From: Synechococcus sp. PROS-U-1
GTDB taxonomy: Bacteria; Cyanobacteriota; Cyanobacteriia; PCC-6307; Cyanobiaceae
Direction: 5' to 3'
Assembly (NCBI RefSeq): GCF_014279755.1
Contig: NZ_CP047951.1
Span: forward strand, 2,356,001 to 2,420,000
Length of the DNA stretch: 64,000 bases
The position numbers were made by a program, and so were the translations under genes. Shown piece after piece: positions 2,908 to 25,609 of this stretch (positions within the stretch are counted from its first letter, which is position 1; each line of letters begins with the position of its first letter). The notes below the pieces were generated by a model. That model did no database searches. It was given only the letters and a program-made list of their open reading frames with translations, and was not told where the DNA came from.

Positions 2908-2952
2908 GAACCGAGTGCAGACAGTCTCAACTGTGGCAGATCCGACAGGAGA

Positions 2953-3609: not shown

Positions 3610-3749
3610 CTCGCAGCCGAATTGTGACAGGGATACAGAACGAACGCTCGACGACCTGGGGGCCTGGACTTATGCAGCAAAACTCCAATGCCTAAGGCAA
3701 AACCTTGACCCTGGTAATGTCAAGTAAATAATGAGACCCTGAAAAAGAA

Positions 3750-6036: not shown

Positions 6037-6660
6037 ATGGCGCCTGGCGAGCAGTTCTCGCAACGACGCATCGGGCTCACCGGCGGAATTGCAAGCGGCA
6101 AAAGCTGCGTGGGCCGTTGGCTGGCTGACGAAGGTTTGCCTGTTCTCGACGCCGATCAATACGCCAGGGACGTCCTCAAACCTCAAAGCACAGCCACGAC
6201 GCTCGTTCTCGAGCGCTATGGACAACGCGTCCGTAACGCCGAGGGGAACGGAATCGACAGAGACGCCTTGGGCCAGATCGTCTTCAACGACACGGGGGAA
6301 CGCCGCTGGCTGGAGCAGCTGATTCATCCCGCCGTGCAGCAACGATTTGACGTCGCCTTGGACGATTTGAAAGAGGCGCCAGCCGTGGTGCTGATGATCC
6401 CGTTGTTGTTCGAATCGGGTTTGGAGTCGCTCTGCAGTGAAATCTGGCTTGTGGACTGCACTGCCCCCCAGCAGCTGGAGCGGCTCATGAACCGTGATGG
6501 GATGAATCGGGATGCAGCTTTGGCACGGATTGACGCGCAATGGCCTCTCAGCCGCAAACGCGACTTAGCAGACCACGTGATCACCAATTCGGGCCAACCA
6601 GGGGCCTGGGAACAACAGGCAAGAGCACTGCTTCAGATGAGCCCCGCAGCCGGACTGTGA
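6037..6660 (+). CDS. coaE: Dephospho-CoA kinase
   Basis: This enzyme phosphorylates the 3'-hydroxyl of dephospho-CoA, the last step of coenzyme A synthesis. The 207-residue length is normal. The Walker A P-loop is in RIGLTGGIASGKS at residues 11-23, followed by the family stretch VLDADQYARDVL, then HPAVQQRF, a central VVLMIPLLFESGLE and the lid-region MNRDGMNRDAALARI. It is divergent from argJ. Its stop codon lies inside a perfect CRP-type palindrome. Confidence 0.95.
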   Translation: MAPGEQFSQRRIGLTGGIASGKSCVGRWLADEGLPVLDADQYARDVLKPQSTATTLVLERYGQRVRNAEGNGIDRDALGQIVFNDTGERRWLEQLIHPAVQQRFDVALDDLKEAPAVVLMIPLLFESGLESLCSEIWLVDCTAPQQLERLMNRDGMNRDAALARIDAQWPLSRKRDLADHVITNSGQPGAWEQQARALLQMSPAAGL

Positions 6661-6671
6661 TCAGGGTCACA
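6656..6671. promoter_or_regulatory. Perfect CRP/SYCRP1-type palindrome TGTGA-N6-TCACA
   Basis: The sequence TGTGATCAGGGTCACA matches the canonical cAMP receptor protein half-sites on both sides with the correct 6-bp spacer. It overlaps the coaE stop and lies 94 bp upstream of the signal-peptide ORF at 6766, a plausible place for an activator site of the genes downstream. A Crp/Fnr-type gene and two cyclase genes lie in the same window. That the site is bound is inference. Confidence 0.6.
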
Positions 6672-8486: not shown

Positions 8487-9967
8487 CAACCCTTGAGTTT
8501 CTTGCTGAGAATCTGGTTGGCCAGCTTGGGATCGGCCTTACCACCAGTCTTCTTCATCAATTGTCCGACGAAGAAGCCCTGCAACTTGGTCTTGCCGCCT
8601 CGGAAGGCCTCCACCTCATCAGGATGGGCCGTCAGCAGCTCGTCCACGATGGCCTCAATCGCAGCCGGATCACTGATCATGCCGAGGCCGCGCTCATCGA
8701 CGATCGCCTTGGGAGACCCCCCCTTTTCCAGAAGCTCCGGCAGGATCTCCTTGGCAATCTTGCCGCTGATCTTGCCCCCATCGATTAGTTGCACCATCTC
8801 CGCCAGCTGGTCCGGCCGGAACGGCAATTCGGCATAGCAAAGCCGGTTGCTGTTCACATAGGCGGCGATATCGCCGGTGATCCAGTTCGCTGCAAGCTTG
8901 GCGTCGGCACCGGCGTTCACAACGGCTTCGAAGTAATCCGCCATCGGCCGCTCATCGGTGAGCACCCGTGCGTCGTACTGGGATAGACCGAGATCATCGG
9001 CATAGCGATGCCGCTTGGCCGCCGGCAGCTCTGGCAATTCAGAGCGCCACGACTCCCGCTGATCGGCCTTCACCTCAATCGGGCCGAGGTCAGGATCCGG
9101 GAAGTAGCGGTAATCACTGGCTCCCTCTTTGCTGCGCATGCTCTTGGTGAGCTGCTTGCCTTCATCCCAGAGCCGCGTCTCCTGCACGATCGGCTCGCCA
9201 GTCTCGTAGGCCTTGATCTGGCGTTTGATCTCGTAGTCACACGCCTTTTGGATGGCGGAAAACGAGTTCATGTTCTTGATCTCCACCTTCGTGCCGAAGG
9301 GGGCATCCGGACCCCGACGCACAGAGATGTTCACGTCACAACGCAGGGATCCCTCCTGCATGTTGCCGTCGCTCACACCCAGATAGCGCATGATCCGGCG
9401 AATCTCCGAGGCATACTCAGCAGCCTCACGACCGGTGCGCAAATCCGGCTTGCTGACAATCTCCGCCAGGGCCACTCCGGCGCGGTTGTAATCCACCAAG
9501 GAATGGGTAGATCCTGCCAGGCGGTCGCTGCCGGCATGCACCAACTTGCCAGCGTCTTCCTCCATATGAAGGCGCTCGATCCCGATCGTTTTCAGGTAGG
9601 TGTCTTTTCCCTTTTCGGCCACTTCCACCTCAATCCAGCCCTCCTCGGCGATCGGCTGGTCGTACTGGGAGATCTGATAGTTCTTCGGGAGATCGGGATA
9701 GAAATACTGCTTGCGGTCGAACTTGCTGTGTTCCGCAATATTGAGGTTCAGCGCCATCGCCGCCTTGACCGCGTACTCGAGCACCTTCTGATTCAGCACA
9801 GGGAGCGTGCCTGGAAGGCCGCAGACCACCGGATCAATGTGGGTGTTGGGGTCATCGCCAAATGTGGTCGATGCCGCCGTGAAAATTTTGCTGTCCGTTC
9901 CCAGCTGAACGTGGGTCTCGAGACCGATCACGGCCTCCCAGGCCAGTTGAGTTGCTGCGTCGGCCAT
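8486..9967 (-). CDS. gatB: Asp-tRNA(Asn)/Glu-tRNA(Gln) amidotransferase subunit B
   Basis: GatB is the tRNA-binding and kinase subunit of the GatCAB complex, which makes Gln-tRNA(Gln) from misacylated Glu-tRNA(Gln) in cyanobacteria. The 493-residue length is normal. Motifs: IGLETHVQL at the N-terminus, VCGLPGTLPVLN, KQYFYPDLPKNYQISQYD, SLVDYNRAGVALAEIVS, GSLRCDVNISVRR and KNMNSF, then the C-terminal YqeY-like tail with GFFVGQLMKKTGGKADP. It heads a two-gene unit with the downstream dioxygenase. Confidence 0.97.
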   Translation of the reverse strand: MADAATQLAWEAVIGLETHVQLGTDSKIFTAASTTFGDDPNTHIDPVVCGLPGTLPVLNQKVLEYAVKAAMALNLNIAEHSKFDRKQYFYPDLPKNYQISQYDQPIAEEGWIEVEVAEKGKDTYLKTIGIERLHMEEDAGKLVHAGSDRLAGSTHSLVDYNRAGVALAEIVSKPDLRTGREAAEYASEIRRIMRYLGVSDGNMQEGSLRCDVNISVRRGPDAPFGTKVEIKNMNSFSAIQKACDYEIKRQIKAYETGEPIVQETRLWDEGKQLTKSMRSKEGASDYRYFPDPDLGPIEVKADQRESWRSELPELPAAKRHRYADDLGLSQYDARVLTDERPMADYFEAVVNAGADAKLAANWITGDIAAYVNSNRLCYAELPFRPDQLAEMVQLIDGGKISGKIAKEILPELLEKGGSPKAIVDERGLGMISDPAAIEAIVDELLTAHPDEVEAFRGGKTKLQGFFVGQLMKKTGGKADPKLANQILSKKLKG

Positions 9968-10048
9968 GCGCCCGTGGTGTGAAGCAATCTCGGGATCCTA
10001 TGGAATCAGGCCCGAGCCGATCAGGATGGGTGTTGTTGCCTGGCCGGC

Positions 10049-10639
10049 ATGGATCCCGCAACACAAGAGCCAGAAGCGATCAATCGCAGGCTGCGGAATC
10101 TGCTCCAGACCCATCTGAAGCTGCTGGACCCTGAGCTTCTCCACCCGGATCCTGATGCCGTTCTGATTGAACAGGGCGAGATCGCCGACTCCCTGCTCCT
10201 GGTGCAACAGGGCCGCCTCGCCGTCGAAATCCAGCAGACCGGCCATGCATCCAGAGTCATCGCTGAAGTGGGTGCTGGAGCGGTCCTGGGAGAAATGGCG
10301 CTTTTCGGAATCGGGGAGCCCCGCCACGGTGCGCGGGTCCGTGTGCTGGATACCAGCACGGAAATCCTGCGCTTCTCGCGGGAGGCGCTGCACGGAGCCG
10401 TGCTCTTCGACGCCGAACTCGCGGCCGAAATGCTGCTCATGAGCAGTGAACGCTGCCGCAACAGCAACCGGATGATCAACCTCTTGCTGGATGGCATTGA
10501 TGCCACAACCCGCGGCGATGCCTCGGCACTGACGCACATCTGCAGCAGCCTCCGCAATGGGCCTGACAGCATGGGGGAAGCGGCGGCTCAGCTGGAGCAG
10601 CTGCTGAAGCACACAGATCCACCACGCCAGGAGAGTTGA
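10049..10639 (+). CDS. Stand-alone cyclic nucleotide-binding domain protein
   Basis: This 196-residue protein is mainly one CNB beta-roll (about residues 30-125) with the phosphate-binding cassette in GAVLGEMALFGIGEPRH. The conserved Glu and Arg are present, but the residue after the Arg is His rather than the usual Ser/Thr, so ligand choice is uncertain. The helical C-terminal part (RNSNRMINLLLDGID) has no helix-turn-helix, kinase or channel that I can see, so it may be a binding partner or adaptor. It lies 7 bp upstream of thiO and near a CHASE2 cyclase on the same strand. Confidence 0.8.
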   Translation: MDPATQEPEAINRRLRNLLQTHLKLLDPELLHPDPDAVLIEQGEIADSLLLVQQGRLAVEIQQTGHASRVIAEVGAGAVLGEMALFGIGEPRHGARVRVLDTSTEILRFSREALHGAVLFDAELAAEMLLMSSERCRNSNRMINLLLDGIDATTRGDASALTHICSSLRNGPDSMGEAAAQLEQLLKHTDPPRQES

Positions 10640-10646
10640 GCCAGCC

Positions 10647-11753
10647 ATGACTCCTGCAGACCATCCAGCCACGCTTGTGCTGGGGGGTGGCTTGATGGGC
10701 CTGGCGGTGGCCCATCAGTTGGCCCGTCGCGGACAGCACGTGACCGTGATCAGCCGCCGCCGCAGCGAAGCGGCCGGATTTGTGGCTGCCGGCATGCTGG
10801 CTCCTCATGCCGAAGGCCTCAGCGGCACCCTGCTGCAGCTCGGCCAGGCCAGCCTGGAGCAGATTCCACGCTGGGTGGCGCAGATTGAACGAGACAGCGG
10901 TCTTGGCTGCGGCCTGCGCACCAGCGGCATTGTGGTGCCGTTCCGAACAGCGGCAGAGCGCGACGCTTACCCCACAGCCCACCTAGGGCAAACCTTGGAC
11001 CGCGCCGGCCTGGAACAGGAGATCCCGGACTTAGGTCCGGAGTGGACCACTGGATTGCTGTTCGAACAGGACGGGCAGATCGACAACCGCCGGCAACTGA
11101 TGCGGGCGCTGGAGCGCGCCTGTGTCTCCCTGGGCGTGCAGTTCATGGAAGGCGCCGAGGTGTTGAACCTGCTCCAAGGGGAGCGTGGGCAACTCAGTGG
11201 TGTCGCACTGCGCAGTGCGGAGGGGGAGCAGCAGCAGCTGCACTGCCGACAAGCGGTGCTCTGCAGTGGTGCTTGGAGCCAACAACTGGTGCCACAACTC
11301 CCTGTGTTCCCGGTGAAAGGCCAGATGCTCTCGCTGCAAGGCCCGCGGGACGCCCTGAAGCGGGTGATCTTTGGCCCAGGCACGTACCTCGTCCCCCGAG
11401 AGGACGGATTGATCGTGGTGGGTGCCACAAGTGAACGGGATGCAGCCTTCGCCGAAGGACTGACCCCCGATGGGCAAAAGCAACTCCAACAGGGCATTGC
11501 AGCGTTGCTACCGATCGCAACCGGCTGGCCACCAATGGAACGCTGGTGGGGCTTCCGGCCCTGCACGCCGGATGAAGGGCCTCTGCTTGGCCCTGGCCCG
11601 ATCCCTGGCTTATGGCTGGCCTGCGGACATCACCGCAATGGGGTGCTGCTTGCGGCGATCACTGCAGAGCTCACAGCCTCCAGCCTGCAGGACGCCCCCC
11701 TACCAGCAGACAACGTCGCCCTGCTCAAGAACTTTCACTGGAGCCGATTTTGA
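10647..11753 (+). CDS. thiO: Glycine oxidase ThiO (FAD-dependent)
   Basis: ThiO oxidises glycine to the imine needed for the thiazole part of thiamine. The 368-residue protein opens with the dinucleotide-binding fold LVLGGGLMGLAVAHQLARRG, continues with AAGMLAPHAEG (typical of DadA/ThiO oxidases), VKGQMLSLQGP in the middle and a C-terminal GLWLACGHHRNGVLLA that closes the FAD site. Spacing of 7 bp to the CNB gene upstream and a TTGA overlap with the cyclase downstream suggest one transcript. A different D-amino-acid oxidase of the same family cannot be excluded. Confidence 0.88.
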   Translation: MTPADHPATLVLGGGLMGLAVAHQLARRGQHVTVISRRRSEAAGFVAAGMLAPHAEGLSGTLLQLGQASLEQIPRWVAQIERDSGLGCGLRTSGIVVPFRTAAERDAYPTAHLGQTLDRAGLEQEIPDLGPEWTTGLLFEQDGQIDNRRQLMRALERACVSLGVQFMEGAEVLNLLQGERGQLSGVALRSAEGEQQQLHCRQAVLCSGAWSQQLVPQLPVFPVKGQMLSLQGPRDALKRVIFGPGTYLVPREDGLIVVGATSERDAAFAEGLTPDGQKQLQQGIAALLPIATGWPPMERWWGFRPCTPDEGPLLGPGPIPGLWLACGHHRNGVLLAAITAELTASSLQDAPLPADNVALLKNFHWSRF

Positions 11754-13669
11754 GGTTCAACGAGCGCCTGCGCGATGGCCTGATCCAGGGCGGCATCGTC
11801 GGCGCCGCAGCTCTGCTCCTGGGGGGACTGGCCACAACCGGGATCAGCGAATCGATCGATCTGCTGCTCTACGACGCCGTCATCAGCCTCAGGGCCACTG
11901 ACTCCGCCCAACGGCACCCGGTGACCATCGCTGGAATCGATGAGGGAGACATCAGCCACTACGGATGGCCCATCGACGATGCCGTGCTGTGTCGCGCCAT
12001 CAGCAATGCAGTAGAAGCCAAGGCCAGTGCGATTGGCCTTGATCTCTATCGCGACCAAGGCATCGGGGAGCAACAAACGTGCCTCCGCGCGTTGATCCAA
12101 CGACACCCCAAGGTCGTTGCCATCTTCAATGCAGCAGAGGGCATCCAAGCTCCTCCAGGCACACCGCCTGAGCAGCAGGCGTTCAATGACCTGGTGGTGG
12201 ATGCCGATGGCGTGATCCGGCGCGACCTGGTCCATGTGAGCGGGCAAGACGACGCCACCGTGAGCCTGCCGGTTCGTCTGGTGGAGACATCGAATCTTCA
12301 ACCCGACCTTCTCGATGCCCTGAGGTCTCCGCAGAGGGCCGAACGGCTCGGGCCCTGGCTGCTACCGCATTCCGGGGGCTACCGAGACCTTGATGCCGCG
12401 GGCTATCAGCGGCTGCTTCCGTTTCAACAACCCGGCAGCTTCCGCACCATCAGCCTGCGGGCTCTGGCCAATGGAGAGGCCAAAACAATGGAGCAGCTGA
12501 GGGGTGAGATCGTGCTGATGGGCAGCACAGCCCCCAGCCTCCGTGATCTGTTCGAGATTCCGCAGAGCCGCTTCATCCGAACAGAACGTCAACTCCGCAT
12601 GCCCGGCGTCGAGGTGCATGCGCTGCGGGTCGCAGCACTTCTGAATGGCCTGAGTGAGCCGTGGTCGCTCAAAACGCTGCCGCCTTGGAGCGATCGTGGC
12701 CTGGAACTGCTCGCGATCCTGACCGGGATCTACCTCGGCGAAAGCTTCCGCAAGCTTCGGCAAAGCATCACGGTCACCGCTGTCCTCACCGCAGCAGTGG
12801 CGAGCAGCGGCATCGCCTTGCTCTGGATGCAGGGGCTATGGATCGGCCTCACCCTTCCGGTGATCTCACTACCCGTCATGGCGGGGGTGGGTTGGCTGCG
12901 ACGCGGTGCCCTGCATCAAAGGCAGAAACAACAAATCGAACGGCTCTTGGGGCAAACCACTTCCCCTGCAGTCGCCTCTCAGTTGTGGGATCAACGCGAC
13001 GCGCTGCTGCGCGATGGTCAATTTGAAGGCAAACAGGTGGACGCCACCGTGTTGTTCACAGACACGCAGGATTTCACCAGCATTTCGGAACAGCTCGCCC
13101 CCGCCGATCTCCTGCTGTGGCTCAATCGCGGCATGGCCCTGCTGGTGAAAGAAATCACCGACCACGGCGGCATCATTAACAAGTTCACCGGCGATGGTCT
13201 CCTGGCGGTGTTCGGTGCACCGATCAGCCAGGGCAAGGCCGTGGATGCTCGTCACGCGATTGATGCTGCCCTGGCGATTGCCGCTCGGCTTGAGCAACTC
13301 AACCGTGAACTCAGCAGGGAAGAGGCACCCCCCATGCGCATTCGGATCGGCATCCATTCAGGCCCACTCATCGCCGGCTCGATGGGCAGCAGCACACGGC
13401 TGGAATACACCGTGATGGGAGACACGGTGAACTGCGCATCGCGGCTGGAAAGCCTGGCCCGGGTGCCCAGCGACCATGTCTGCCGCACGCTGTTCAGTCG
13501 GCAAACTCTGCAGCAGTGTGCGAACGATGACCTGATCTGGCACTCGGTAGGTCGGTTTCATGTGAAAGGACGCCAACAGGTCGTGGACGTGCTCGAACTA
13601 AACGGCGTGAAACCCGGTACAGCCTTCAGAACAGGCAACGCACCGGCAGACGATCCGGCCAAGAGCTGA
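11750..13669 (+). CDS. CHASE2-domain class III adenylate cyclase (first copy)
   Basis: Domain order: N-terminal membrane helix (about 10-30), extracytoplasmic CHASE2 sensor (about 40-340, with VTIAGIDEGDISHYGWP and GSTAPSLRDLF), closely spaced hydrophobic helices (about 370-430) and a cytoplasmic class III cyclase domain (about 470-620). Catalytic residues are visible: metal-binding Asp in FTDTQDFT and in GDGLLAVFG, substrate Lys in NKFTGDG, Thr in the purine-selecting position of EYTVMG, and the transition-state Asn and Arg in VNCASR. It should make cAMP in response to a periplasmic signal. A TTG at 11750 overlapping the thiO stop is the best start; the frame is open further upstream but inside thiO. 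Its 3' end overlaps the convergent DUF928-like gene by 44 bp. Confidence 0.88.
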   Translation: MRFNERLRDGLIQGGIVGAAALLLGGLATTGISESIDLLLYDAVISLRATDSAQRHPVTIAGIDEGDISHYGWPIDDAVLCRAISNAVEAKASAIGLDLYRDQGIGEQQTCLRALIQRHPKVVAIFNAAEGIQAPPGTPPEQQAFNDLVVDADGVIRRDLVHVSGQDDATVSLPVRLVETSNLQPDLLDALRSPQRAERLGPWLLPHSGGYRDLDAAGYQRLLPFQQPGSFRTISLRALANGEAKTMEQLRGEIVLMGSTAPSLRDLFEIPQSRFIRTERQLRMPGVEVHALRVAALLNGLSEPWSLKTLPPWSDRGLELLAILTGIYLGESFRKLRQSITVTAVLTAAVASSGIALLWMQGLWIGLTLPVISLPVMAGVGWLRRGALHQRQKQQIERLLGQTTSPAVASQLWDQRDALLRDGQFEGKQVDATVLFTDTQDFTSISEQLAPADLLLWLNRGMALLVKEITDHGGIINKFTGDGLLAVFGAPISQGKAVDARHAIDAALAIAARLEQLNRELSREEAPPMRIRIGIHSGPLIAGSMGSSTRLEYTVMGDTVNCASRLESLARVPSDHVCRTLFSRQTLQQCANDDLIWHSVGRFHVKGRQQVVDVLELNGVKPGTAFRTGNAPADDPAKS

Positions 13670-14264: not shown

Positions 14265-14404
14265 GACGCCCGCACACCAAGACAACCCTTCTTTCAGGAT
14301 CGGTCGTCATCCAAGGGAGGGGCTGTCTCTTGTAACCAAAGCCTTACAAATTCAGCCACACCCGACATTCAGAGCTAATCGAAGAAGACGTGCTGCCTCT
14401 GACC

Positions 14405-15658
14405 ATGCTCAACAGGTTGACAACCCTTTCACTGGCAGTTGCCTTGGGATCTGGCTTGCTGGTGAGTGGCGGCCCGAGCCACGGTCAAACCTCTCCCGAG
14501 TTGACCAAGAAAGTGCTGCAGATGGAACGGGATCGCGAAAAGGAATTTGAGGATTACTTCGGCGAAGACCTTGCCTCGGTCAGCAAAACCGCTGATGAAA
14601 CCGCCGCCGACCTGGAACGCCTCAGTGCCGAGACCGGCACCCGCTCAGCCCTGCTGTACGTGATTCCGCGGAAGACCCATCTGCACCTGGTGCTGATCCC
14701 CCCCAGCGGGACACCAATCGTGAAGGACTTTTACGACGTCACCGACCCGGAGCTCTTCGCCGTCTCTGGACAGTTTCACAAGGGCATCCTGCGGATGGAT
14801 GCGGCCCAGAGCCAAACCAGCGGCCAACAGCTTTATGACTGGATCATCAAGCCCTATGAGCAGGAGCTGGCTGCTGCCGAGATCGATCTGCTGCTGTTCT
14901 GCCTCGGCGACGGGGTCAAGGATCTAGCCCTACCGGCCCTATCGAACGACGGCACCTATCTGATCGAGACCTATGCCATGGCGCGGATCCCCGCGTTCAA
15001 CCTGATTGAGACGAACTACAAGCCGTTCAAGAGCGGCCAACTGCTGGCCATGGGAGCCAGTCAATTTCAGGATCCATCGATTCCAGCCTTACCAGGCACA
15101 AAGAAGGAAATCGCCGGGCTCAGCAAAAGCCTTAGCTCCACAGGCCAAGGCCAATGGGGCGTCACCCGTCTGGAGAACCAGGCCTTCACGCAAACACGGA
15201 TCAACCAAAACCTGTCGAAGCAACCCTTCTCGGCACTGCACGTGAGCACCCACGCGCAATTCCAACCCGGCAAGGTCGAAGCCTCCTACATCCAACTGTG
15301 GGATCAGAAACTGACACTCAAGGCCCTCAATGCGATCGACTGGGACCAATCCAAAGCGGATCTGATCGTTCTCAGTGCCTGTCAAACCGCTCTGGGAGAC
15401 ACCGATGCTGCCAATGGCTTTGCAGGACTCGCCCTCAAGGCTGGCGTTCCATCCGCCATCGGCACGCTTTGGTCGATCAACGATCAATCGACCACAAATT
15501 TGATGAAGGCCTTCTACAGCGAACTGCCCGAAAGCCGGACCAAAGCACAGGCCCTTCAATCAGCCCAAGTGGCGGCAATCCGCGGTTCTGGCAGCTCAAT
15601 CGCCATGAAATCTCCCTACTACTGGGCAGGCTTCAGCCTGATCAGCACACCGTGGTGA
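14405..15658 (+). CDS. Secreted CHAT-domain (caspase-like) protein
   Basis: After a signal peptide (MLNRLTTLSLAVALGSGLLV, cleavage near SHGQ) and a short acidic helical stretch comes a CHAT domain filling the rest of about 417 residues. The caspase-type catalytic dyad is visible: His in ALHVSTHAQF and Cys in LIVLSACQTALGD, followed by GFAGLALKAGVPSAIGTLW. CHAT proteins are clan CD cysteine peptidases or peptidase-like regulators; no TPR repeats, common in other CHAT proteins, are present. An upstream GTG at 14390 is an alternative start. It is divergent from the DUF928-like gene. Confidence 0.87.
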   Translation: MLNRLTTLSLAVALGSGLLVSGGPSHGQTSPELTKKVLQMERDREKEFEDYFGEDLASVSKTADETAADLERLSAETGTRSALLYVIPRKTHLHLVLIPPSGTPIVKDFYDVTDPELFAVSGQFHKGILRMDAAQSQTSGQQLYDWIIKPYEQELAAAEIDLLLFCLGDGVKDLALPALSNDGTYLIETYAMARIPAFNLIETNYKPFKSGQLLAMGASQFQDPSIPALPGTKKEIAGLSKSLSSTGQGQWGVTRLENQAFTQTRINQNLSKQPFSALHVSTHAQFQPGKVEASYIQLWDQKLTLKALNAIDWDQSKADLIVLSACQTALGDTDAANGFAGLALKAGVPSAIGTLWSINDQSTTNLMKAFYSELPESRTKAQALQSAQVAAIRGSGSSIAMKSPYYWAGFSLISTPW

Positions 15659-16264: not shown

Positions 16265-18193
16265 GTGTCAGACAGCGAACACTGGTCGATTCAGGACAGT
16301 GCTGCGTTGTATGGCCTTGACCGCTGGGGCGATCCGTACTTCTCGATCAACGGCCGCGGGCATGTCAGTGTTCAGCCACAGGGGGAGCGTGGCGGCAGCC
16401 TGGATCTGGTGGATCTTGTGGCCGAACTGCGCGGTCGAAATCTCGGTTTGCCACTTCTGATTCGTTTCGACGACATCCTGGAAGACCGGTTGGAGCGCCT
16501 GCACGCCGCCTTTGAACGCGCGATCGCGCAGTACGACTACCGCGGTCGTTACCAAGGGGTCTTCCCCGTCAAGTGCAACCAGCAGCGGCATGTGGTGGAG
16601 GAGCTGGTGAGCTGTGGCCACCGCTGGAACTTCGGACTCGAAGCAGGAAGCAAGGCCGAGCTTCTGATTGCCCTCTCGTTGCTGGATGACCCGGAGGCAC
16701 TGCTGATCTGCAACGGCTACAAGGATCGGCTTTACATCGAGACAGCGATTCTGGCGCGCCGCTTGGGACGCCAACCAGTGGTCGTGATCGAACAACCCGA
16801 TGAGGTCGACCGCATCATCGAAGCCAGCCGCAGCCTTGAGGCCGCTCCCTACATCGGCGTGCGCGCCAAGTTGTCGAGCCGCAGCACCGGGCGATGGGGC
16901 AGTTCCGTGGGAGACAAGGCCAAATTTGGACTGTCCATCCCCGATCTGCTGGCCACTGTTGAACGCCTGAAGCAACACGATCTGCTGCAGGATCTGCGGT
17001 TGCTCCATTTCCACATCGGCAGCCAGATCAACGACATCGCTGTGCTGAAGGACGCGCTGCAGGAAGCCGGCCAGATCTACGTGGAGCTGACACGGCTCGG
17101 TGCGCCGATGGGATTTCTCGACGTCGGTGGGGGCCTGGGCATCGACTATGACGGCAGCCGCACCGCGTCGGCCGCCTCAACGAACTATTCCCTGCAGAAC
17201 TACGCCAACGATGTGGTGGCCACGGTGCGGGAGTGCTGTGAACCGAATGGGGTTGCGGTACCCACCCTGGTGAGCGAAAGCGGGCGAGCCATTGCCAGCC
17301 ATTTCTCGCTGCTGGTGTTCGACGTGCTGGGAAGCAGTGCACTGCCTGCTTCCGTTCCCAGCCACCGCAACGATGAACCTCTCACCGTTCGCAATCTGCG
17401 GGAGACCCTGGCCACGATCCAGGAGCTCTCAAGCTCAGCGGAGGCCGAATTGGTTCGACTGCAAGAGGCTTGGAACGATGCACTGAAGTTCAAACAGGAC
17501 GCCCTCGCAGCGTTCCGACTCGGCTACATGGGGCTGCGCGACCGCGCGACAGCAGAGCAACTGACCTGGGCCTGCGCCGATGCGATCGCCAGCCGACTTC
17601 CAGCGGATCAGACCGTGCCCGAGGAGCTGTCTGCCCTCCGTGGAGCCTTGGCCGGGACGTATTACGCCAACTTTTCGATCTTCAGGTCAGCGCCTGACAC
17701 CTGGGCCATCGACCAACTCTTCCCCGTCCTGCCGATTCAGAAGCTCGAGCAACGCCCGAGCCGCCTGGCCAGCCTGGCCGACCTCACCTGCGATTCCGAC
17801 GGGCGCCTCGATCGCTTCATCGGTGAAGGTCAGCCCAAAACCCTTCTGGAGCTGCACGCTTTGGAAGGCGACGAGCCCTATTTGATTGCCCTCTTCCTCA
17901 GCGGCGCGTACCAGGAGGTGATGGGCAACCTCCACAACCTGTTCGGCACCACCAACGCTGTTCACATCCGTCTCAGTCCTGGAGGCAGCTACCGCATCGA
18001 TCATGTGGTCCGTGGCGACACCAATGCCGATGTGCTCGAGGCCATGGAGCACGATCCGCGCGCGTTGCTGGAACGGCTGCGGGTGGCTGCAGAGGCAGCC
18101 ATCAACAACGGAAAGCTCCGCATCGACGAATCACGACGTCTTCTCGATCATCTGGAGAGCAGCCTGCGCCAGACCACCTACCTTCAAGACTGA
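16265..18193 (+). CDS. speA: Biosynthetic arginine decarboxylase
   Basis: SpeA is a PLP enzyme that converts arginine to agmatine, the entry to polyamine synthesis. The 642-residue length fits. Visible are the PLP lysine in GVFPVKCNQQRHV, LHFHIGSQIND, the phosphate-binding DVGGGLGIDYDGS, and the C-terminal DHVVRGDTNADVLEAM. A GTG serves as start. The last 10 bp overlap the end of the convergent Crp/Fnr gene. Confidence 0.95.
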   Translation: MSDSEHWSIQDSAALYGLDRWGDPYFSINGRGHVSVQPQGERGGSLDLVDLVAELRGRNLGLPLLIRFDDILEDRLERLHAAFERAIAQYDYRGRYQGVFPVKCNQQRHVVEELVSCGHRWNFGLEAGSKAELLIALSLLDDPEALLICNGYKDRLYIETAILARRLGRQPVVVIEQPDEVDRIIEASRSLEAAPYIGVRAKLSSRSTGRWGSSVGDKAKFGLSIPDLLATVERLKQHDLLQDLRLLHFHIGSQINDIAVLKDALQEAGQIYVELTRLGAPMGFLDVGGGLGIDYDGSRTASAASTNYSLQNYANDVVATVRECCEPNGVAVPTLVSESGRAIASHFSLLVFDVLGSSALPASVPSHRNDEPLTVRNLRETLATIQELSSSAEAELVRLQEAWNDALKFKQDALAAFRLGYMGLRDRATAEQLTWACADAIASRLPADQTVPEELSALRGALAGTYYANFSIFRSAPDTWAIDQLFPVLPIQKLEQRPSRLASLADLTCDSDGRLDRFIGEGQPKTLLELHALEGDEPYLIALFLSGAYQEVMGNLHNLFGTTNAVHIRLSPGGSYRIDHVVRGDTNADVLEAMEHDPRALLERLRVAAEAAINNGKLRIDESRRLLDHLESSLRQTTYLQD

Positions 18194-18906
18194 GGCAACA
18201 GGCCCCGTTTCACGAGGGGCTGAAGGTCGGCGAGCTGCAAAGCCCCCTCGTCTGTAACCGTCACCGTTGCCCGCGTCCGCAGTTTGCTGAGCGTTCTTGA
18301 GGCTGTTTCCCGGGCCAGACCTGCAACAAGTGCAATTTCCTTCTGAGCCAATGGTGGGATGACAGCAGTGGGCTGCGCGTCAGGGCCGGTTTTGCGCGCC
18401 AGATACGCCAAGGTGTCGAGCAATCGTGTTGTGGCGTCAGCGCTCTGCAAGGCGAAGCGCTGATTTAAATCCCTCAATCGCGACGCCTCAAGGCGTGCCA
18501 AGGCCAGAGCAAAACCAGCCTCACGCTGCAGGAGCGATGCAAAGGGTGCTGCACGCAACTTCACCAGATGAAGCGGCGTCAGAGCGACGACGTCGGCGGA
18601 GCGAACTGCTCCATCCAGTGCTGCCATTTCGCCGAAGACATCGCCCGAACCAAGGAGAGACATCACCACTTCATCTCCATCCGCGGTGTAGGTGCGCACC
18701 TTCGCCAAACCGGAGCGGAGCAGAAACAAAGACTCGCCCCAGTCCTGCTCCATCACAATTAACTGCTCTGCCTGATGGGTGGTTTCACGGTGGCGATCCA
18801 GCAGCTGCTCCAGCTGTTCGATCGCCAAATCGCTGAACAGAGGCATCAACTTCAGGTCAGCCGAGGTCAACGCAGACAAAGGACAACTCCACGAGAGCTC
18901 GTCCAA
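18184..18906 (-). CDS. Crp/Fnr-family transcription regulator
   Basis: This protein has an N-terminal cyclic nucleotide-type beta-roll (about residues 22-130) and a C-terminal winged helix-turn-helix with the typical PPLAQKEIALVAGLARETAS-then-RTLSKLR pattern. In the phosphate-binding cassette GDVFGEMAALDGAVRSA, the Glu and the Arg-Ser pair that contact cAMP in E. coli CRP are all present, so it may be a true cAMP receptor rather than an NtcA-type regulator. A TTG gives 240 residues; the ATG of MPLFSDLAIEQ at 18846 is an alternative start. It is the obvious candidate to bind the TGTGA-N6-TCACA site at 6656, which is inference. Confidence 0.88.
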   Translation of the reverse strand: MDELSWSCPLSALTSADLKLMPLFSDLAIEQLEQLLDRHRETTHQAEQLIVMEQDWGESLFLLRSGLAKVRTYTADGDEVVMSLLGSGDVFGEMAALDGAVRSADVVALTPLHLVKLRAAPFASLLQREAGFALALARLEASRLRDLNQRFALQSADATTRLLDTLAYLARKTGPDAQPTAVIPPLAQKEIALVAGLARETASRTLSKLRTRATVTVTDEGALQLADLQPLVKRGLLPQS

Positions 18907-19007: not shown

Positions 19008-19901
19008 ATGGATCGCAACGCCCTGATCGAGGCCCTGCAAGACGAGGGCAACCTGAAGCATTCCTTCAGCACCAAAGAGATTGCGAGCCTGGCGGAACAT
19101 TTGACGATCGAGGAGATCCCCAAAGAAACCATCTTGATGAAAAAGGGCGAGCCCTCAGACAGCATGGTGTTCATTCTTGATGGACTGGTACAGATTCTTG
19201 ACGGCAAACGACAAATTGCAATCGAAAAAAAAGGAGCATTTATTGGCGAAAGCCTTTTCTCAGACGAGGCGACACGCGGAGCAGATGTTGAAACGATAGA
19301 ACCAACAACAGTTGGGCGATTTTCATTCTTCAACTTCAACGCTTTTCTCGATAAAAACCAACCTCTCGCCCTGAAATACCGTGAATACTTCAGGGCGATA
19401 GGACGCGCACGTGATGAACAGCTTTTAGCAGAAAGCTACAACGACAAACGCAAATATCTTGCCCTGATAGCGCACAACAACATGAAGGCAAGTTTGATGG
19501 AATTCTGCAGCATTCACACCAAAAAGCTTGAGAAATTTCCCTTGATTGCAACCGGCACCACCGGCAGCATGCTCTACGCCAAAACAGGCCTCTCTCTAAG
19601 CAAAAAGGTGGCGTCTGGCCCTCTGGGTGGAGATCAGGCGGTTGGCACGCTGATCTCAACAAAGAATATTTGCGGGGTGATCTTTTTCAGGGATCCACTG
19701 TCTGCTCACCCCCACCATGCCGACATCGAAGCCCTGGGACGCCTCTGCGATGTATATCAGATCCCCTTTGCCACCAATCCCCAAAGTGGAGAAGCCATTC
19801 TCGACTACCTCCTCTCAGGCAAATCCGAATATGAATTGATCCCCAATCATGTTCTTGAAGCCTATGTTCAAGGGCAGAGAAAGGTTGTTGAAGCCGGCTG
19901 A
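19008..19901 (+). CDS. Cyclic nucleotide-binding domain fused to methylglyoxal synthase
   Basis: The protein has 297 residues. Residues about 20-120 form a CNB beta-roll with the cassette GAFIGESLFSDEATRGA: Glu and Arg are present, but Gly replaces the usual Ser/Thr after the Arg. Residues about 147-265 match methylglyoxal synthase (MgsA), which turns dihydroxyacetone phosphate into methylglyoxal and phosphate: ATGTTGSM, the catalytic Asp209 in SGPLGGDQAVG, IFFRDPLSAHPHHADI with the conserved Asp and His, and IPFATNPQSGEAIL. One deviation is the first motif, which reads AHNNMK where E. coli has AHDHCK. MgsA is normally a stand-alone enzyme of about 150 residues, so this is a fusion that would put the glycolytic bypass under nucleotide control. 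It is convergent (23-bp gap) with a cyclase gene. Confidence 0.9.
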   Translation: MDRNALIEALQDEGNLKHSFSTKEIASLAEHLTIEEIPKETILMKKGEPSDSMVFILDGLVQILDGKRQIAIEKKGAFIGESLFSDEATRGADVETIEPTTVGRFSFFNFNAFLDKNQPLALKYREYFRAIGRARDEQLLAESYNDKRKYLALIAHNNMKASLMEFCSIHTKKLEKFPLIATGTTGSMLYAKTGLSLSKKVASGPLGGDQAVGTLISTKNICGVIFFRDPLSAHPHHADIEALGRLCDVYQIPFATNPQSGEAILDYLLSGKSEYELIPNHVLEAYVQGQRKVVEAG

Positions 19902-19924: not shown

Positions 19925-21688
19925 TCAAAAATCGGAGCGCAGTGAGATCAAGCCAAAAACGGCGATGGGATCCGGCCAGCCTTTCACTACATGGGAGCCC
20001 AAGTCATGCACCACAACATCCTCGGCGATCAGATCTCTGACATCTCCACTCATCAGAACCGGATAGTTCGGGAATTGCCTTGTGAGAGATTCCAGCCGGC
20101 TGGCCAGATTCACTGCTGCACCAATCACGGTGTACTCCAGTCGATGGCTTGATCCGAGATTGCCAGCAATCACTTCACCACAGTGGATGCCAATTCCCTG
20201 ACGAAGCGGCTCCACCCCCTCCTGTTCCAGTTCTCGATTGAGAGTCTCAAGATTGGCCTGCATGGCCAGAGCGGCCCGTACTGCCGCGAGAGCCTCAGCT
20301 CGATCGCCCCGATGCACGGGGACCCCAAATTCCGCCATCAGGGCATCTCCGATGAATTTGTCCAACAACCCCTGCTCCTGCAAAACCGGAGCCGCAATCG
20401 CCTCGAAGTAGCGATTCAACAAACCAAACAGGGCCTCCGCATCCATCACATTGCTGCGGGCCGTGAATCCCACCAAATCGGTGAACAACACCACACAGCG
20501 CTCGCGACGACCTCCAAGACGTGTCCAACTGTCCTGCCCCGAGCGCAGCATGTCGCGCATGAGATTCGGTGACACCCGACGGGACAGCACCGAATGCAGA
20601 AATCTGCGTTGCGCGCTTTCCCTCTGAAACTGATCCCCCGCTCTGAGACTTCCCGCGACCAACGGCATCAGCATCAAGGCTGCCCCAGGCAGCCAGAGGC
20701 CGTTGAACCACGCCACAACAACGAACCCCGTGGCGAGAGCCTCCAGAGCAGCGGTCGTGATCGCTGTCCCGAGGGCAGTCGATGGAGAAGCGATGCGCCA
20801 CTGACACAACAGCAACCAGATCACCATCAACGCCACCAGATGAGAGACATCAGGTGATCGAAAGCCGCGGCCGCTCTGCAAACCGGCAATGGCGGACAAC
20901 AAAACCTCGGAGCCACTTTGCTGTCCAAAAGGCGTCTCCAGCTGATCGCCCAGGGATGGCGCCGTAGAGCCGAAAATCACGGTCTTGTCACGCCAGCTGT
21001 CGTCCGAAAGCGTCCCCACCGCCCAGGCGGGGATCACGGGAACGTGGCCACTGGGACCCAGAAAATCAATGCCATCGTCTCCTGGCGAGGACGCCACCCC
21101 CGCCGCCAAGTGCGCCAGAGGTCGCGGATGAGGCTCGGGGAATGCACTGAGCATCCCTTTGAGGCGAGCCAGCCCTGGAACAGCCTGCACAACCCCGAAG
21201 GCATTCATCGAAAACGCCGACAGGCCGACGGGATAGCTCGCATCCCAGGGACGTCGCAGTTGAACCTGCTCGAAACCATCCAACTGCTGACGCACCAGCG
21301 AGGCACTCAACACAATCCGGTCTTGCCACGGTTGCAGTGCGTCTTGAAACGCGCGGTCGTCGCTTAGTCCAAAACTGCTTGGCCCGACATGGACGATGTT
21401 GAAGACAACACGGCGGGCACCCTTACGGAGGACCGCACGGGCCAGCTCTGCCTGCAGGGCACGCGGCCAAGGCCACGGGCCGAAATCGGACAACTGCGGA
21501 TCCAGAGACGCCTCGTCAATGCCCAGCAGCACCACGTCATCAGGAGGCTGAATCGGGCCACGCCACTGAAAGAGGAGCTGCCGGCCTGTGGCGTCCAACC
21601 GCGTCAGCAACGGCAGCAAGGCCAGGGGCAACAGCAGTGAAGCCCGCCAAAGAGACGCAACAAGATGCCGTCGGATCAAACGTCTCAA
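19925..21688 (-). CDS. CHASE2-domain class III adenylate cyclase (second copy)
   Basis: Same plan as the copy at 11,750: N-terminal membrane helix, CHASE2 sensor (about 35-290, with VVLLGIDEASLDPQLSDFG and FGSTAPSLGDQ), transmembrane helices (about 300-350) and cyclase domain (about 385-580). Catalytic residues are intact: Asp in FTDLVGFT and GDALMAEFG, Lys in DKFIGDA, Thr in EYTVIG, Asn and Arg in VNLASR. The stretch after EYTVIG reads AAVN instead of DTVN, which does not touch the known catalytic positions. Its ATG overlaps the fecR-like stop by 4 bp, so the two are co-translated, a pairing known from other bacteria in which the FecR-like protein is the partner of the sensor. Confidence 0.88.
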   Translation of the reverse strand: MRRLIRRHLVASLWRASLLLPLALLPLLTRLDATGRQLLFQWRGPIQPPDDVVLLGIDEASLDPQLSDFGPWPWPRALQAELARAVLRKGARRVVFNIVHVGPSSFGLSDDRAFQDALQPWQDRIVLSASLVRQQLDGFEQVQLRRPWDASYPVGLSAFSMNAFGVVQAVPGLARLKGMLSAFPEPHPRPLAHLAAGVASSPGDDGIDFLGPSGHVPVIPAWAVGTLSDDSWRDKTVIFGSTAPSLGDQLETPFGQQSGSEVLLSAIAGLQSGRGFRSPDVSHLVALMVIWLLLCQWRIASPSTALGTAITTAALEALATGFVVVAWFNGLWLPGAALMLMPLVAGSLRAGDQFQRESAQRRFLHSVLSRRVSPNLMRDMLRSGQDSWTRLGGRRERCVVLFTDLVGFTARSNVMDAEALFGLLNRYFEAIAAPVLQEQGLLDKFIGDALMAEFGVPVHRGDRAEALAAVRAALAMQANLETLNRELEQEGVEPLRQGIGIHCGEVIAGNLGSSHRLEYTVIGAAVNLASRLESLTRQFPNYPVLMSGDVRDLIAEDVVVHDLGSHVVKGWPDPIAVFGLISLRSDF

Positions 21689-22569
21689 CGGGCTGGAGCC
21701 GTAACCCCCAGTTCCCGCTCAATATCAGGCAACGTCTCCAAGGGGGTCGAGAAACCGTTGATCAGAAGGCTCTTCTGGAGGCGTCGCTCCGCGTCCTGCC
21801 TGGAAATCGGCTGAGGGGGCTCCCAATCGAACGCCTGCGCATCCTGTGCACGCGACCGGGGACTGCGGGATCCGTCTCGACCTGGCGTCGACGGCGTCAC
21901 GACACCACTGCGCTGCCCCAAAGCGGCTTCAAGACCATCCAAGCGCCCACTGACTTCGACCAGTTGGCGCTTCAGATCCAACAGAAGCTGCTGACCGCTC
22001 TTCAACGTGAAACGTCGTCCATTGCTGGTCTTCACCTGCACCGTGCCTTCCCAGCTGAACACTTTGAACTGCTGATCCGTAAACTCCAGGAAAACAGTGG
22101 TCCCCTGAATCGAGGCGGTGGCCAAACGAGTTTTGATCGTGAAGGGATTGAGACGGGGCGTCCCTGGCTTGATCCAGCCAATGATGGACCCCTTCAACAG
22201 TTCGACGTTAGACGAACCCAGGCGCAACTGGGCATCGCCCCCCATCCGGAACTGACGACCGTTGCCCAACATCACCTGCATACGACCAGGCTTGGTGGTG
22301 CGCAACAAGGTGTTCGTCTTCAGCGACTGACCGGAGCGGGCCTTGATCTCTAAAGCGCCTGGCAGCTTGACGAAGGCAGGACCAGACGGAACCTCAACAA
22401 TGCGCGGCTGCGCAGCACGGGACGGCTGCAACCAAAGGGCGCTACTTAGGAGCAGTAAGGCACTGGCTTGAACAAAAACTGCTTGTTTTGACACCTGCAG
22501 CCAACATTTGTTCAAGGTTGGCAGCGTGTCACTAATCGCGCCACCAGACGAGAGGGAAAAGAACGACAC
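21685..22569 (-). CDS. FecR-domain secreted protein partnered with the CHASE2 cyclase
   Basis: This 294-residue protein has a signal-type hydrophobic segment at about residues 30-50 (ASALLLLSSALWLQ, cleavage near SRAAQ), a FecR domain at about 60-190 (LRTTKPGRMQVMLGNGRQFR, FTIKTRLATASIQGTTVF, FSWEGTVQV) and a Ser/Arg-rich disordered linker before a short C-terminal helix. FecR domains lie in the periplasm and relay signals to membrane partners; 4-bp overlap with the cyclase gene points to that partner. The start is only 11 bp from the divergent phosphofructokinase frame; a later start inside the ORF is possible because the first 30 residues precede the signal segment. Confidence 0.82.
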   Translation of the reverse strand: MSFFSLSSGGAISDTLPTLNKCWLQVSKQAVFVQASALLLLSSALWLQPSRAAQPRIVEVPSGPAFVKLPGALEIKARSGQSLKTNTLLRTTKPGRMQVMLGNGRQFRMGGDAQLRLGSSNVELLKGSIIGWIKPGTPRLNPFTIKTRLATASIQGTTVFLEFTDQQFKVFSWEGTVQVKTSNGRRFTLKSGQQLLLDLKRQLVEVSGRLDGLEAALGQRSGVVTPSTPGRDGSRSPRSRAQDAQAFDWEPPQPISRQDAERRLQKSLLINGFSTPLETLPDIERELGVTAPAR

Positions 22570-22580
22570 GCCGCCGTTGG

Positions 22581-23978
22581 TTGCCGAGTGAAAAAGCTGG
22601 AGTCAGATTACAAGCATTCAGTGTCGTCACACGCATGGCCTACGAGAACGTTCTGGCGAATCCAAATGCATTCGACTTTGACGTTCAACAACTCGGGGAT
22701 CCGACGCACATCAATCCAAGCAGCCACGAAGTTTTTATCAACGACGCAGAGAGAATTATTTTTTCCAGCCAAATCGAGAACCTGAATCATCAACTCAAAA
22801 CATGCGAAAAACTACCTGCCTTCGAAAAAGGAGGTGCACGACAAAAAATCTTCCACGATCCGAAATCAACTCGCGCTGCAATCATCACCTGCGGAGGCCT
22901 CTGTCCTGGGTTAAACAATGTGATCAAGGGGCTGGTAAATGAACTCGAAAAGGACTACGGAGTTGAAAACATTCTCGGCATACGTTATGGATACAAGGGG
23001 CTAACCAAGGCATCGAAACATGAACCGATGCAATTAAACTCCTCAGTGGTTGATCAAATTCATAAACAGGGAGGAACCATTCTGGGGTCATCACGGGGCA
23101 ATCAGGATCCAGAGGCCATGGTGGACGAGCTTCAGAGGAGAAACATCAATCTCCTGTTCTGCATTGGCGGAGATGGGACGCTCAAGGGAGCTCAAGCAAT
23201 CGCAGAAGCTGCCAACAAACGCCAAGCCAACATCAGCATTATCGGCGTACCAAAAACTATCGACAATGATCTTGGCTTTGTCGAAAAAACCTTCGGCTTC
23301 GAAACCTCTGTACAGGTGGCCTCTGAAATCATCACGTCGGCCCACCACGAAGCGGAAGGCGCTGAAAATGGTATAGGCATCGTGAAGCTGATGGGGCGTG
23401 ACTCTGGCTTCATAAGCGCCACAGCATCGCTAGCAAATTCGGTTGTAGATTTCTGCCTCATTCCGGAGACTCCTTTTCAGTTCGATGGACCCGACGGCAT
23501 TTGCACAGCCATTCATTGCAGACTCAAACAAAACAACCACGTGGTAATTGTTGTCGCAGAGGGCGCAGGTCAAGAGCTTTTTAAAAATAGCAAAAAAATG
23601 ATCGATGCATCCGGCAACGTCCTCAAGGAGGACATTGGAGAATTGCTTAAGCAGGAAATCACGGCCCACTTCAAACAAAAGAATATTCCTATCAGCATCA
23701 AGTACTTTGATCCGAGCTATCACATCCGGAGTGTTTCAGCAAATGCAGCTGATGCGGTGTATTGCCACCTACTTGCCGAATACGCTGTTCATGCTGGCAT
23801 GAGCGGAAAAACCAATCTTGTGATTGGCTACTGGAACAATTTCTTTACCCATGTTCCTATTCACTTGGCAACAAAAGAGCGGCGAATGGTTGACCTTGAT
23901 AGCGCCTTATGGCGCGGCGTCATCAGCTCAACTCAGCAGGACAAAGCATCTCTCCAGCAAGTAGATTTCTTGCCATAG
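22581..23978 (+). CDS. 6-phosphofructokinase, long (group III-like) type
   Basis: The protein phosphorylates fructose 6-phosphate to the 1,6-bisphosphate, the committed step of EMP glycolysis. Motifs: ITCGGLCPGLNNVIKGL, LGIRYGYKGL, GGDGTLKGAQ (the Gly in GGDGT points to ATP rather than pyrophosphate as donor), the catalytic PKTIDND, GFETSVQVASE and KLMGRDSGFIS. Its 465 residues and N-terminal extension match the longer plant/spirochaete-type clade rather than the short bacterial PfkA. The frame opens with TTG at 22581; the ATG of MAYENVLANP at 22635 is a more likely start and frees space for a divergent promoter. The gene is noticeably more AT-rich than alaS or speA, suggesting acquisition. 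Confidence 0.9.
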   Translation: MPSEKAGVRLQAFSVVTRMAYENVLANPNAFDFDVQQLGDPTHINPSSHEVFINDAERIIFSSQIENLNHQLKTCEKLPAFEKGGARQKIFHDPKSTRAAIITCGGLCPGLNNVIKGLVNELEKDYGVENILGIRYGYKGLTKASKHEPMQLNSSVVDQIHKQGGTILGSSRGNQDPEAMVDELQRRNINLLFCIGGDGTLKGAQAIAEAANKRQANISIIGVPKTIDNDLGFVEKTFGFETSVQVASEIITSAHHEAEGAENGIGIVKLMGRDSGFISATASLANSVVDFCLIPETPFQFDGPDGICTAIHCRLKQNNHVVIVVAEGAGQELFKNSKKMIDASGNVLKEDIGELLKQEITAHFKQKNIPISIKYFDPSYHIRSVSANAADAVYCHLLAEYAVHAGMSGKTNLVIGYWNNFFTHVPIHLATKERRMVDLDSALWRGVISSTQQDKASLQQVDFLP

Positions 23979-24130: not shown

Positions 24131-25609
24131 ATGAACCTGGCACTTCAATGGCTGTGCACGATCGCTGCGCCCTTGGCAGGACTGTTGATCAAGCGAATCT
24201 GCCAACGATTTGGCGTACCGCTTTTTCCGTGGCGCATACCCTGGATCGCACTGCTGGCATCCACGACGGAACAGTCCATCCAAGCCCTCCAGATTCCAAT
24301 CTCAGCAGGCATTGATGCCAGCATCATCAGCGGCATTCTCTCTTCGATTGCCATCAGCCGTTGCCTGGTTTGGCTGATCCTCGAACTGCTGCCCACACTT
24401 CGAATCTTGCCATCCAGCCCAAAGATTCTGCGAGATGTGATTTTCATCATCGGGAGCATGCTCCTGATCGCACTCAACCTGAAGGAACAGGCCCGTATCG
24501 ACCTGGTGGGCCTGGTCACAACGTCGGCAGTCCTCACGGCTGTTCTTGGATTAGCAGCACAGGATCCGCTCAAAGACCTCATCGGAGGATTAAGCCTTCA
24601 ACTGGAGCAGGTGATCCGGGAAGGAGACTGGGTCGAAATCGATGGACAGATTGGACGCGTTGCATCGATCAGCTGGAGAGACACAGAAATCAACAGCCTC
24701 CACGGCTCAAAACTGACGTTCCCTCATACCAGTTCCAACTCCAGCACGATCAAAAATTTCACGAGCAATGGAGCCCACGGCAACCGTTTAATTGTCGGCC
24801 TTGACTACAACATGCCGCCAGACATTGCCAAGAAATTAATGCAAAAAATATCCGACAATCACCCCCTGGTTCTTCGCAAACCAGCCTGCATCATCAGAAT
24901 CAGATCATTCGAAGAGAGCTGCATCAACTACGAATGGATTAATTGGCAAGAAGACTATGGCCAGAGTCGTGCGCTTCGAGGCGACCTGCAAGAACAGCTT
25001 TGGTATGCACTTCAACGCGAAGGCTTTAGCTTCCCCTTCAGCGTTCGGGATGTGCGGCTGAGCAAAAACAGCCAACCACCCAAATCCATGCATACCAATA
25101 AAGCAAAATTACTTAAAGCAGCAGGCAAACTTCTCCAGAAAAATCCACTGTTTTCCATTCTTTCTGATCAACAAATCCAAAAGATGATGGAGATGAGCTC
25201 ACTATGCTCATATGGACCTGGAGAAATTATCGTCACTGAAAATGAAAGCGGCAACTCGCTTTTCATGCTGATCGATGGACATGTATCCATCAGGAAGCCA
25301 GCAATCGCACAAAACAACTCAGAAATAGCTCGGCTTAAAAGCGGCGATATTTTCGGAGAAATGACTGTTTTCGCAGGCACTCCACGCAGCGCAACTATTC
25401 AAAGTATTTGCAAAGTCGATCTGCTTGAAATAGACCGACAAGCCATCGCCGAATTAATTGAAGAAAAACCTGGCTTGATTGAAACCTTTGGTCAGATGAT
25501 CAGTACTCGACAAGCCCAGCTGGACCAATTGAGTATCACACCACAACCTTCAGCGAGTCGTGATGTGGTGAGACGAATGAAAGCCCTCTTTCAAAATCTG
25601 ATCTCTTAA
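24131..25609 (+). CDS. MscS-type mechanosensitive channel with C-terminal cyclic nucleotide-binding domain
   Basis: The 492-residue protein has N-terminal membrane helices (about 1-150), the MscS pore-lining and beta domain (about 150-260, GLAAQDPLKDLIGGLSLQ and IREGDWVEIDGQIGRV), a short alpha/beta segment, and a CNB domain at about 345-470. The CNB cassette GDIFGEMTVFAGTPRSA keeps Glu, Arg and Ser, so it should bind a cyclic nucleotide. Such bacterial cyclic-nucleotide-gated MscS relatives are known (bCNG); ligand gating rather than tension is their reported mode. It follows the phosphofructokinase gene by 150 bp on the same strand and shares its lower GC content. Confidence 0.88.
   Translation: MNLALQWLCTIAAPLAGLLIKRICQRFGVPLFPWRIPWIALLASTTEQSIQALQIPISAGIDASIISGILSSIAISRCLVWLILELLPTLRILPSSPKILRDVIFIIGSMLLIALNLKEQARIDLVGLVTTSAVLTAVLGLAAQDPLKDLIGGLSLQLEQVIREGDWVEIDGQIGRVASISWRDTEINSLHGSKLTFPHTSSNSSTIKNFTSNGAHGNRLIVGLDYNMPPDIAKKLMQKISDNHPLVLRKPACIIRIRSFEESCINYEWINWQEDYGQSRALRGDLQEQLWYALQREGFSFPFSVRDVRLSKNSQPPKSMHTNKAKLLKAAGKLLQKNPLFSILSDQQIQKMMEMSSLCSYGPGEIIVTENESGNSLFMLIDGHVSIRKPAIAQNNSEIARLKSGDIFGEMTVFAGTPRSATIQSICKVDLLEIDRQAIAELIEEKPGLIETFGQMISTRQAQLDQLSITPQPSASRDVVRRMKALFQNLIS

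Follow-up and report, generated by a model that had tools for sequence, protein, structure and literature searches.

Methylglyoxal synthase (MGS) is generally described as an enzyme controlled by its substrate and by phosphate. The MgsA proteins of E. coli, Bacillus and Thermus (1b93, 6f2c and 2xw6) have no N-terminal cyclic-nucleotide-binding (CNB) domain, and the initial annotation of the locus described here held that MgsA normally acts alone. That statement does not hold throughout: of 20 further cyanobacterial MGS loci (L014–L033), 19 lie in frames of 420–508 residues, the one locus among them that was scanned with Pfam (L014) carries a DAGK/NAD-kinase-like domain besides MGS, and Synechocystis Sll0036 is reported to have an NADK motif as well as an MGS motif (PMC11897720).

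Here we compare with these systems a gene of Synechococcus sp. PROS-U-1 located in the window, by which we mean the whole analysed stretch of 64,000 nucleotides, and whose product, P0001, carries a CNB domain ahead of an MGS domain. P0001 resembles the MgsA enzymes in its fold, its catalytic residues and its GGDQ motif, and its MGS domain is 43–50% identical to the MGS chains listed by Foldseek; it differs from them in the added CNB domain and at the places of Asp20 and Asp99. With the MGS-DAGK/NADK-like fusion (Sll0036; L014) it shares the joining of MGS to another domain, but there the partner is C-terminal and kinase-like (in the scan of L014 only), and the loci of that type, which have AHD in 19 of 20 cases, lie on the opposite side of a supported tree branch from the CNB fusions. 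In a full-text search of openly available papers, 'methylglyoxal synthase' was not found together with 'cyclic nucleotide-binding domain' or 'cNMP', and no literature was found on cAMP and methylglyoxal in 'unbalanced metabolism'. If the reading proposed below is true, a second messenger acting directly on MGS would tie signalling to phosphate release and to a toxic electrophile.

A CNB domain and an MGS domain in one reading frame

P0001 is encoded on the forward strand by a single intact open reading frame (19008–19901) of 297 codons, with an ATG start and no internal stops. Its CNB domain spans residues 35–117 (19110–19358) and scores 51.2 bits against Pfam cNMP_binding (cut-off 27.5); the cassette residues Glu81 and Arg90 align with Glu72 and Arg82 of CRP. 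A predicted linking helix, residues 118–143 (19359–19436), occupies the C-helix position of CNB domains, with low model confidence at residues 141–147. Residues 147–276 (19446–19835) are recognized as methylglyoxal synthase by NCBIfam NF003559/PRK05234 (144.8 bits, cut-off 84), and Pfam MGS matches residues 170–256 with 47.4 bits (cut-off 24.1). The score against TIGR00160, 141.5 bits, falls narrowly (by 5 bits) below the cut-off of 146.9, and we therefore call this part an MGS domain that has the catalytic set, and not a certified MgsA.

By sequence, the closest solved structures are MGS chains (2xw6, E 1.2e-35), with CNB structures ranking far lower, from E 2.4e-6. The AlphaFold2 model, built from 17 aligned sequences, has a mean pLDDT of 79.5 and is of fair to good quality within each domain, whereas its pTM of 0.47 makes the relative placement of the domains unreliable; Foldseek matched it both to MGS (2x8w, E 3.6e-13) and to CNB (5k8s, E 3.3e-10) structures. 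The proposal of a CNB domain fused to an MgsA-type domain, with a profile match to be expected for each half, is thus borne out by Pfam, where both halves exceed the cut-off, by NCBIfam and by the predicted structure. A chance or artefactual joining of two frames was considered and rejected, since the CNB-MGS architecture recurs in relatives. The host genome (2.58 Mb, one contig) has three places with the MGS fold. From their frame lengths (1136 and 530 residues), the two besides P0001 are taken as CarB and PurH and, if this is right, P0001 is the sole MgsA of that genome.

Alignment with E. coli MgsA pairs His156, Lys160, Thr182–Thr185, Asp209, Asp229, His236 and Asp239 of P0001 with His19, Lys23, Thr45–Thr48, Asp71, Asp91, His98 and Asp101, residues that we take to be catalytic or phosphate-gripping. 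The GGDQ catalytic set and the downstream Asp and His residues are therefore intact, as first claimed. Both deviations named in the initial annotation also exist, Gly91 following the cassette Arg90 and Asn157, in an AHNNMK stretch, where E. coli has Asp20; what they signify is taken up below with the family. E. coli Arg150 aligns with Gln290, at an end where the alignment is uncertain.

Distribution of the family and unequal constraint on its two halves

Besides a few further bins, marine Synechococcus, Trichodesmium, Verrucomicrobiota and Myxococcota have related fusions. They occur at 21 loci of the species collection and in 13 of the 251 genomes of the window's family (A1 profile, E <= 1e-15), where two copies are divergent (G268, G387) and two are frameshifted (G255, G573). 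Both domains are Pfam-confirmed in P0001, L013 and the G289 copy, and the other copies are assigned by alignment. Frameshifts are also found at L037 and L040, both from single-cell assemblies, where the sequence may contain errors; at L043 an in-frame stop lies close to the start. In two other phyla the fusion is rare. A draw of Verrucomicrobiota around L044 gave it in one of 240 genomes, the centre genome itself, the other ten matches covering the MGS part only; a draw around L053 gave four of 377, of which three are species-collection loci and one, G1057, is truncated where its contig stops. One genome (G598, locus L126) has an apparent second, divergent copy beside the main type, with AHD and a changed TGTT motif, like L013. 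At L054, from a Flavobacteriales bin, the CNB part scores 20.8 bits, below the Pfam cut-off of 27.5, and EF-hand-like repeats, likewise below the Pfam cut-offs, seemingly precede it (9698–10837 of that locus), possibly placing calcium, nucleotide and MGS in a single chain. Among viral contigs, one A1 scan gave 36 pattern matches, of which none is a relative. The remaining 238 of the 251 family genomes (156 if only the 168 with a completeness of 90% or more are counted) have no match at E <= 1e-15 with a profile that also detects MGS without CNB in another phylum, so that most marine picocyanobacteria seem to have no MgsA at all.

When 61 MGS domains were placed on a tree, the 30 rows with the fusion fell on the same side of a branch with support 97/85, and the closest relatives of P0001 include loci titled marine-type Synechococcus. 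L075, L054 and L053 form long branches, and L013 and L075 hang together on a long one, which makes the unity of the family less sure at its edges. Locus L039, titled Crocinitomicaceae, is treated here as Synechococcus DNA, because six of its neighbours resemble window genes at 45–95% identity (GatB 95%, Ndk 86%); the phylum labels of L041 (Latescibacterota) and L045 (Gemmatimonadetes) are doubtful in view of their tight grouping with Verrucomicrobiota rows. For the residue counts, L012 and L047 were taken as duplicates (identical extent, identity and aligned letters) and counted once, L012 being dropped; the frameshifted L037, L040 and G255 were excluded throughout, as were L075, L106 and L126; G573 was left out of the MGS counts, its N-terminal piece entering the CNB counts; and L039 was counted as picocyanobacterial.

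The MGS half is highly constrained. Of the 29 fused rows (L075 being outside the count), 28 or all 29 retain each of Asp71, Asp91, His98 and Asp101, and pN/pS of the MGS part is 0.04–0.10 in nine of ten chosen pairs, four of them sharing P0001, as expected under strong purifying selection; the tenth pair, two Trichodesmium copies with few changes, gave 0.60 for the MGS part and 0.79 for the CNB part. Asp20 is nevertheless replaced by Asn in 27 of the 29 rows, P0001 included, and Asp99 by His in 25 of 29 (His237 in P0001), whereas 29 of 30 MGS rows without CNB keep Asp20 and none of the 30 has His at 99. The AHNNMK deviation is thus real, but it is no private defect of one protein: judged from these alignments, Asn at this place is a clade signature rather than decay of the P0001 copy. 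Asp20 is perhaps less important to catalysis than Asp71 and Asp101, and the Asn and His replacements could have changed the activity of P0001. Literature searches on Asp20 mutants and on MGS allostery gave no usable result. Two divergent relatives have lost more, L053 lacking Asp71, His98 and Asp101 and L075 lacking Asp71, the Asp of GGDQ; a few fusion relatives are therefore probably inactive.

The CNB half evolves several times faster, with pN/pS of 0.13–0.45 in the same nine pairs. The cassette Glu and Arg are both kept in 22 of 30 rows, 13 of 14 outside the picocyanobacteria and 9 of 16 within them; seven of the eight rows that have lost one or both residues are picocyanobacterial. From this pattern, cyclic-nucleotide binding was probably within reach of the ancestral CNB-MGS form, and Synechococcus-type genomes seem to have lost an intact cassette on more than one occasion. 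A Ser, Thr or Ala after the cassette Arg serves as a guide to the ligand of CNB domains, and P0001, with Gly91, has none of these. Rows that keep the Arg have G, V, I, T, S or M there, so this variable position gives no choice between cAMP and cGMP, and the Gly pointed out initially does not identify the ligand. Because the family includes members with the cassette Arg intact, with it lost and with the gene broken, it offers a natural series for testing the sensor.

Cyclases and metabolic genes around the fusion

The gene next to the fusion (19925–21688, reverse strand) encodes, by Pfam, a CHASE2-class III cyclase and converges on it, with 24 bp between the gene ends; a FecR-domain protein (21685–22569, reverse strand) overlaps with its end the start of the cyclase gene. 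On the other side, a Crp/Fnr-type regulator (18184–18906, reverse strand; Pfam, NCBIfam) is divergent from the fusion gene. Further out lie an MscS-type channel with a C-terminal CNB domain (24131–25609, forward; Pfam) and, by profile search, a second CHASE2-class III cyclase (11612–13669, forward), whose true start may fall inside the frame, and a CNB-only protein of 196 residues (10049–10639, forward). Genes such as ndk and speA are also found within 10.0–25.6 kb, as is a CHAT-domain protein (14390–15658; Pfam) inside the cluster of signalling genes. These 15.6 kb hold four of the ten CNB domains of the host genome and both of its class III cyclases; the chance that a random gene pair lies as close as these two PF00211 places is 0.012. 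The catalytic domain of the adjoining cyclase finds its best alignments among adenylate cyclases (CyaB, 3r5g) and has the Lys (DKF) and Thr (EYT/DYT) that we take to be the class IIIb adenylate pattern, which favours cAMP as the ligand. The suggestion of control by a cyclic nucleotide is, at the level of gene content, made more plausible by the two cyclases nearby.

The convergent cyclase-fusion pair recurs in G201 (L055), L034 and G547 (L127), and the divergent fusion of G268 (L062) has a looser pairing with ndk in between; the window-type cyclase is absent from 18 kb around the fusions of G189, G289, G322 and G255, and the genome of G189 has no PF00211 cyclase at all. A class III cyclase is present in all 21 genomes of the species-collection fusion loci, and in 11 of 13 fusion carriers compared with 96 of 238 other family genomes (Fisher p 0.002, uncorrected for kinship). 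In G573, which is a single case where a sequencing error is possible, a frameshifted fusion is all that occupies the same chromosomal spot, flanked by speA and alaS, and no PF00211 cyclase is present in the genome. The idea that the cassette Arg is lost strictly together with a nearby cyclase was also considered and dropped, since L006 (G286) and L036 lack the Arg yet have a cyclase-type gene about 3 kb off. The fusion at L051 has as its neighbour (2185–5004 of that locus) a protein in which two CNB stretches accompany a class-V aminotransferase domain. About 2.7 kb from the fusion gene of L057 (G223), five frames of 226 residues recur at an exact spacing of 870 bp (1374–5584), with 300-nt stretches that are 100% identical in all five; they adjoin an RTX-repeat protein, and the one that was scanned gave no Pfam match.

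The consensus of CRP-type sites is TGTGA-N6-TCACA. Between 18907 and 19007, upstream of the fusion gene, there is no such palindrome at up to two mismatches, and the window as a whole has 13 at this level, fewer than in shuffled sequence (25.5). Its sole exact match, at 6656–6671, lies at the end of a frame at 6037–6660.

A 6-phosphofructokinase of the PRK06830 type (22581–23978, forward; NCBIfam) completes the neighbourhood. At E <= 1e-60 this enzyme is found in three of the 251 family genomes, all fusion carriers in which the two genes are 2.6–2.7 kb apart (p 1e-4, uncorrected for kinship), and is absent from the other 10 of the 13 family carriers and from 16 of the 21 species-collection fusion genomes, many of them incomplete bins. 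At L034, L039 and L045 no more than 3 kb separates it from the fusion, with other gene orders at L039 and L045; in the genomes of L038 and L053 it lies on a different contig from the fusion. In G286 (L056) a short piece resembling it follows the fusion. A glyoxalase I of the host genome is encoded about 0.5 kb outside the window.

A candidate nucleotide-gated MGS and its relation to known systems

We consider it fairly probable that P0001 is an MGS under the control of a cyclic nucleotide, likeliest cAMP, which acts on the enzyme's own N-terminal CNB domain. On a cue outside the membrane, one of the two adjacent CHASE2 cyclases would make the signal; the CNB domain would bind it, and the helix joining CNB to MGS would move. 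The MGS part, presumably as an oligomer, would then be activated rather than inhibited and turn DHAP into methylglyoxal and phosphate, the linked phosphofructokinase would raise the supply of triose phosphate, and the methylglyoxal would be cleared by the glyoxalase I. Such cooperation may, we infer, serve as a valve that lets out excess or frees phosphate under the control of the signal. This reading is favoured by the presence of both domains, the catalytic residues, the cassette Glu and Arg, the conserved architecture, the purifying selection and the gene linkage. Counted against it are the cassette losses in eight of 30 rows (in some of them a cyclase-type gene lies about 3 kb off), the fast evolution of the CNB part, the replacements of Asp20 and Asp99, the TIGR00160 miss, the fusions with no window-type cyclase nearby and the absence of the phosphofructokinase from most carriers. 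The chief doubt concerns the sensor, in view of the seven picocyanobacterial rows without cassette residues, some of them near a cyclase-type gene, and the second doubt is how much useful catalysis is left with Asn157 and His237. More tentatively still, sensor cyclase, CNB-gated MGS and phosphofructokinase might form a transferable cassette, a second-messenger methylglyoxal switch that, on an external cue, would release free phosphate and generate a reactive electrophile from triose phosphate, Asp20 and Asp99 having been replaced when the enzyme came under nucleotide control.

The same doubt about the sensor feeds an alternative that we regard as unlikely, in which the MGS is active and the CNB domain has become blind to nucleotides in this lineage, serving assembly only or answering another cue, as in regulators of the Fnr kind with a CNB fold. 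The loss of Glu or Arg in seven of 16 picocyanobacterial rows, the variable residue after the Arg, the several-fold faster evolution of the CNB part and the fusion retained by G189 with no PF00211 cyclase would all suit it; yet P0001 itself keeps Glu81 and Arg90, as do 13 of 14 rows outside the picocyanobacteria, and a cyclase gene adjoins it. Less likely again is that the MGS domain is a weakly catalytic or non-catalytic sensor of DHAP or phosphate, through which P0001 integrates triose phosphate and cyclic nucleotide for some partner. The clade-wide Asn and His and the missing GGDQ Asp of the divergent L053 and L075 would agree with such a sensor, but the near-invariance of Asp71, Asp91, His98 and Asp101 under strong purifying selection speaks against it, and an output partner is not evident.

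We give very little credence to a Pycsar-like defence effector, in which the fusion, on infection sensed by the cyclase, would poison the cell through methylglyoxal. PADLOC likens the CNB part to PycTIR and the cyclases to PycC, PycTIR (8jsk) is among the solved structures matched by sequence (E 3e-4), and the spread of the fusion is patchy (13 of 251 genomes). However, the same PADLOC models match the MscS channel and the Crp-like regulator as well, which makes the likeness one of superfamily only, and no pair of PycC with a PycTIR or PycTM effector emerges; the cyclases bear CHASE2 sensors, glyoxalase I is near, and linkage, where seen, is with cyclase, FecR and phosphofructokinase.

A gated MGS remains our preferred reading, and its parts have parallels in several described systems. 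P0001 resembles the Pycsar effectors (PycTIR) in the fusion of a CNB domain to an effector and in the adjoining class III cyclase, but it has no TIR or membrane effector, and its surroundings are CHASE2 sensor cyclases and metabolic genes. With CRP-family regulators it shares the CNB fold and the Glu and Arg of the phosphate cassette, while its output is an enzyme and not a helix-turn-helix. In the mycobacterial cAMP-gated acetyltransferase Pat (CNB + GNAT; 4ava), the CNB domain gates the enzyme directly. As in P0001, that domain is N-terminal and stands beside an enzyme; the CNB part matches the lysine acetyltransferase 4ava only weakly (E 0.12), and the enzyme domain of Pat is unrelated to MGS.
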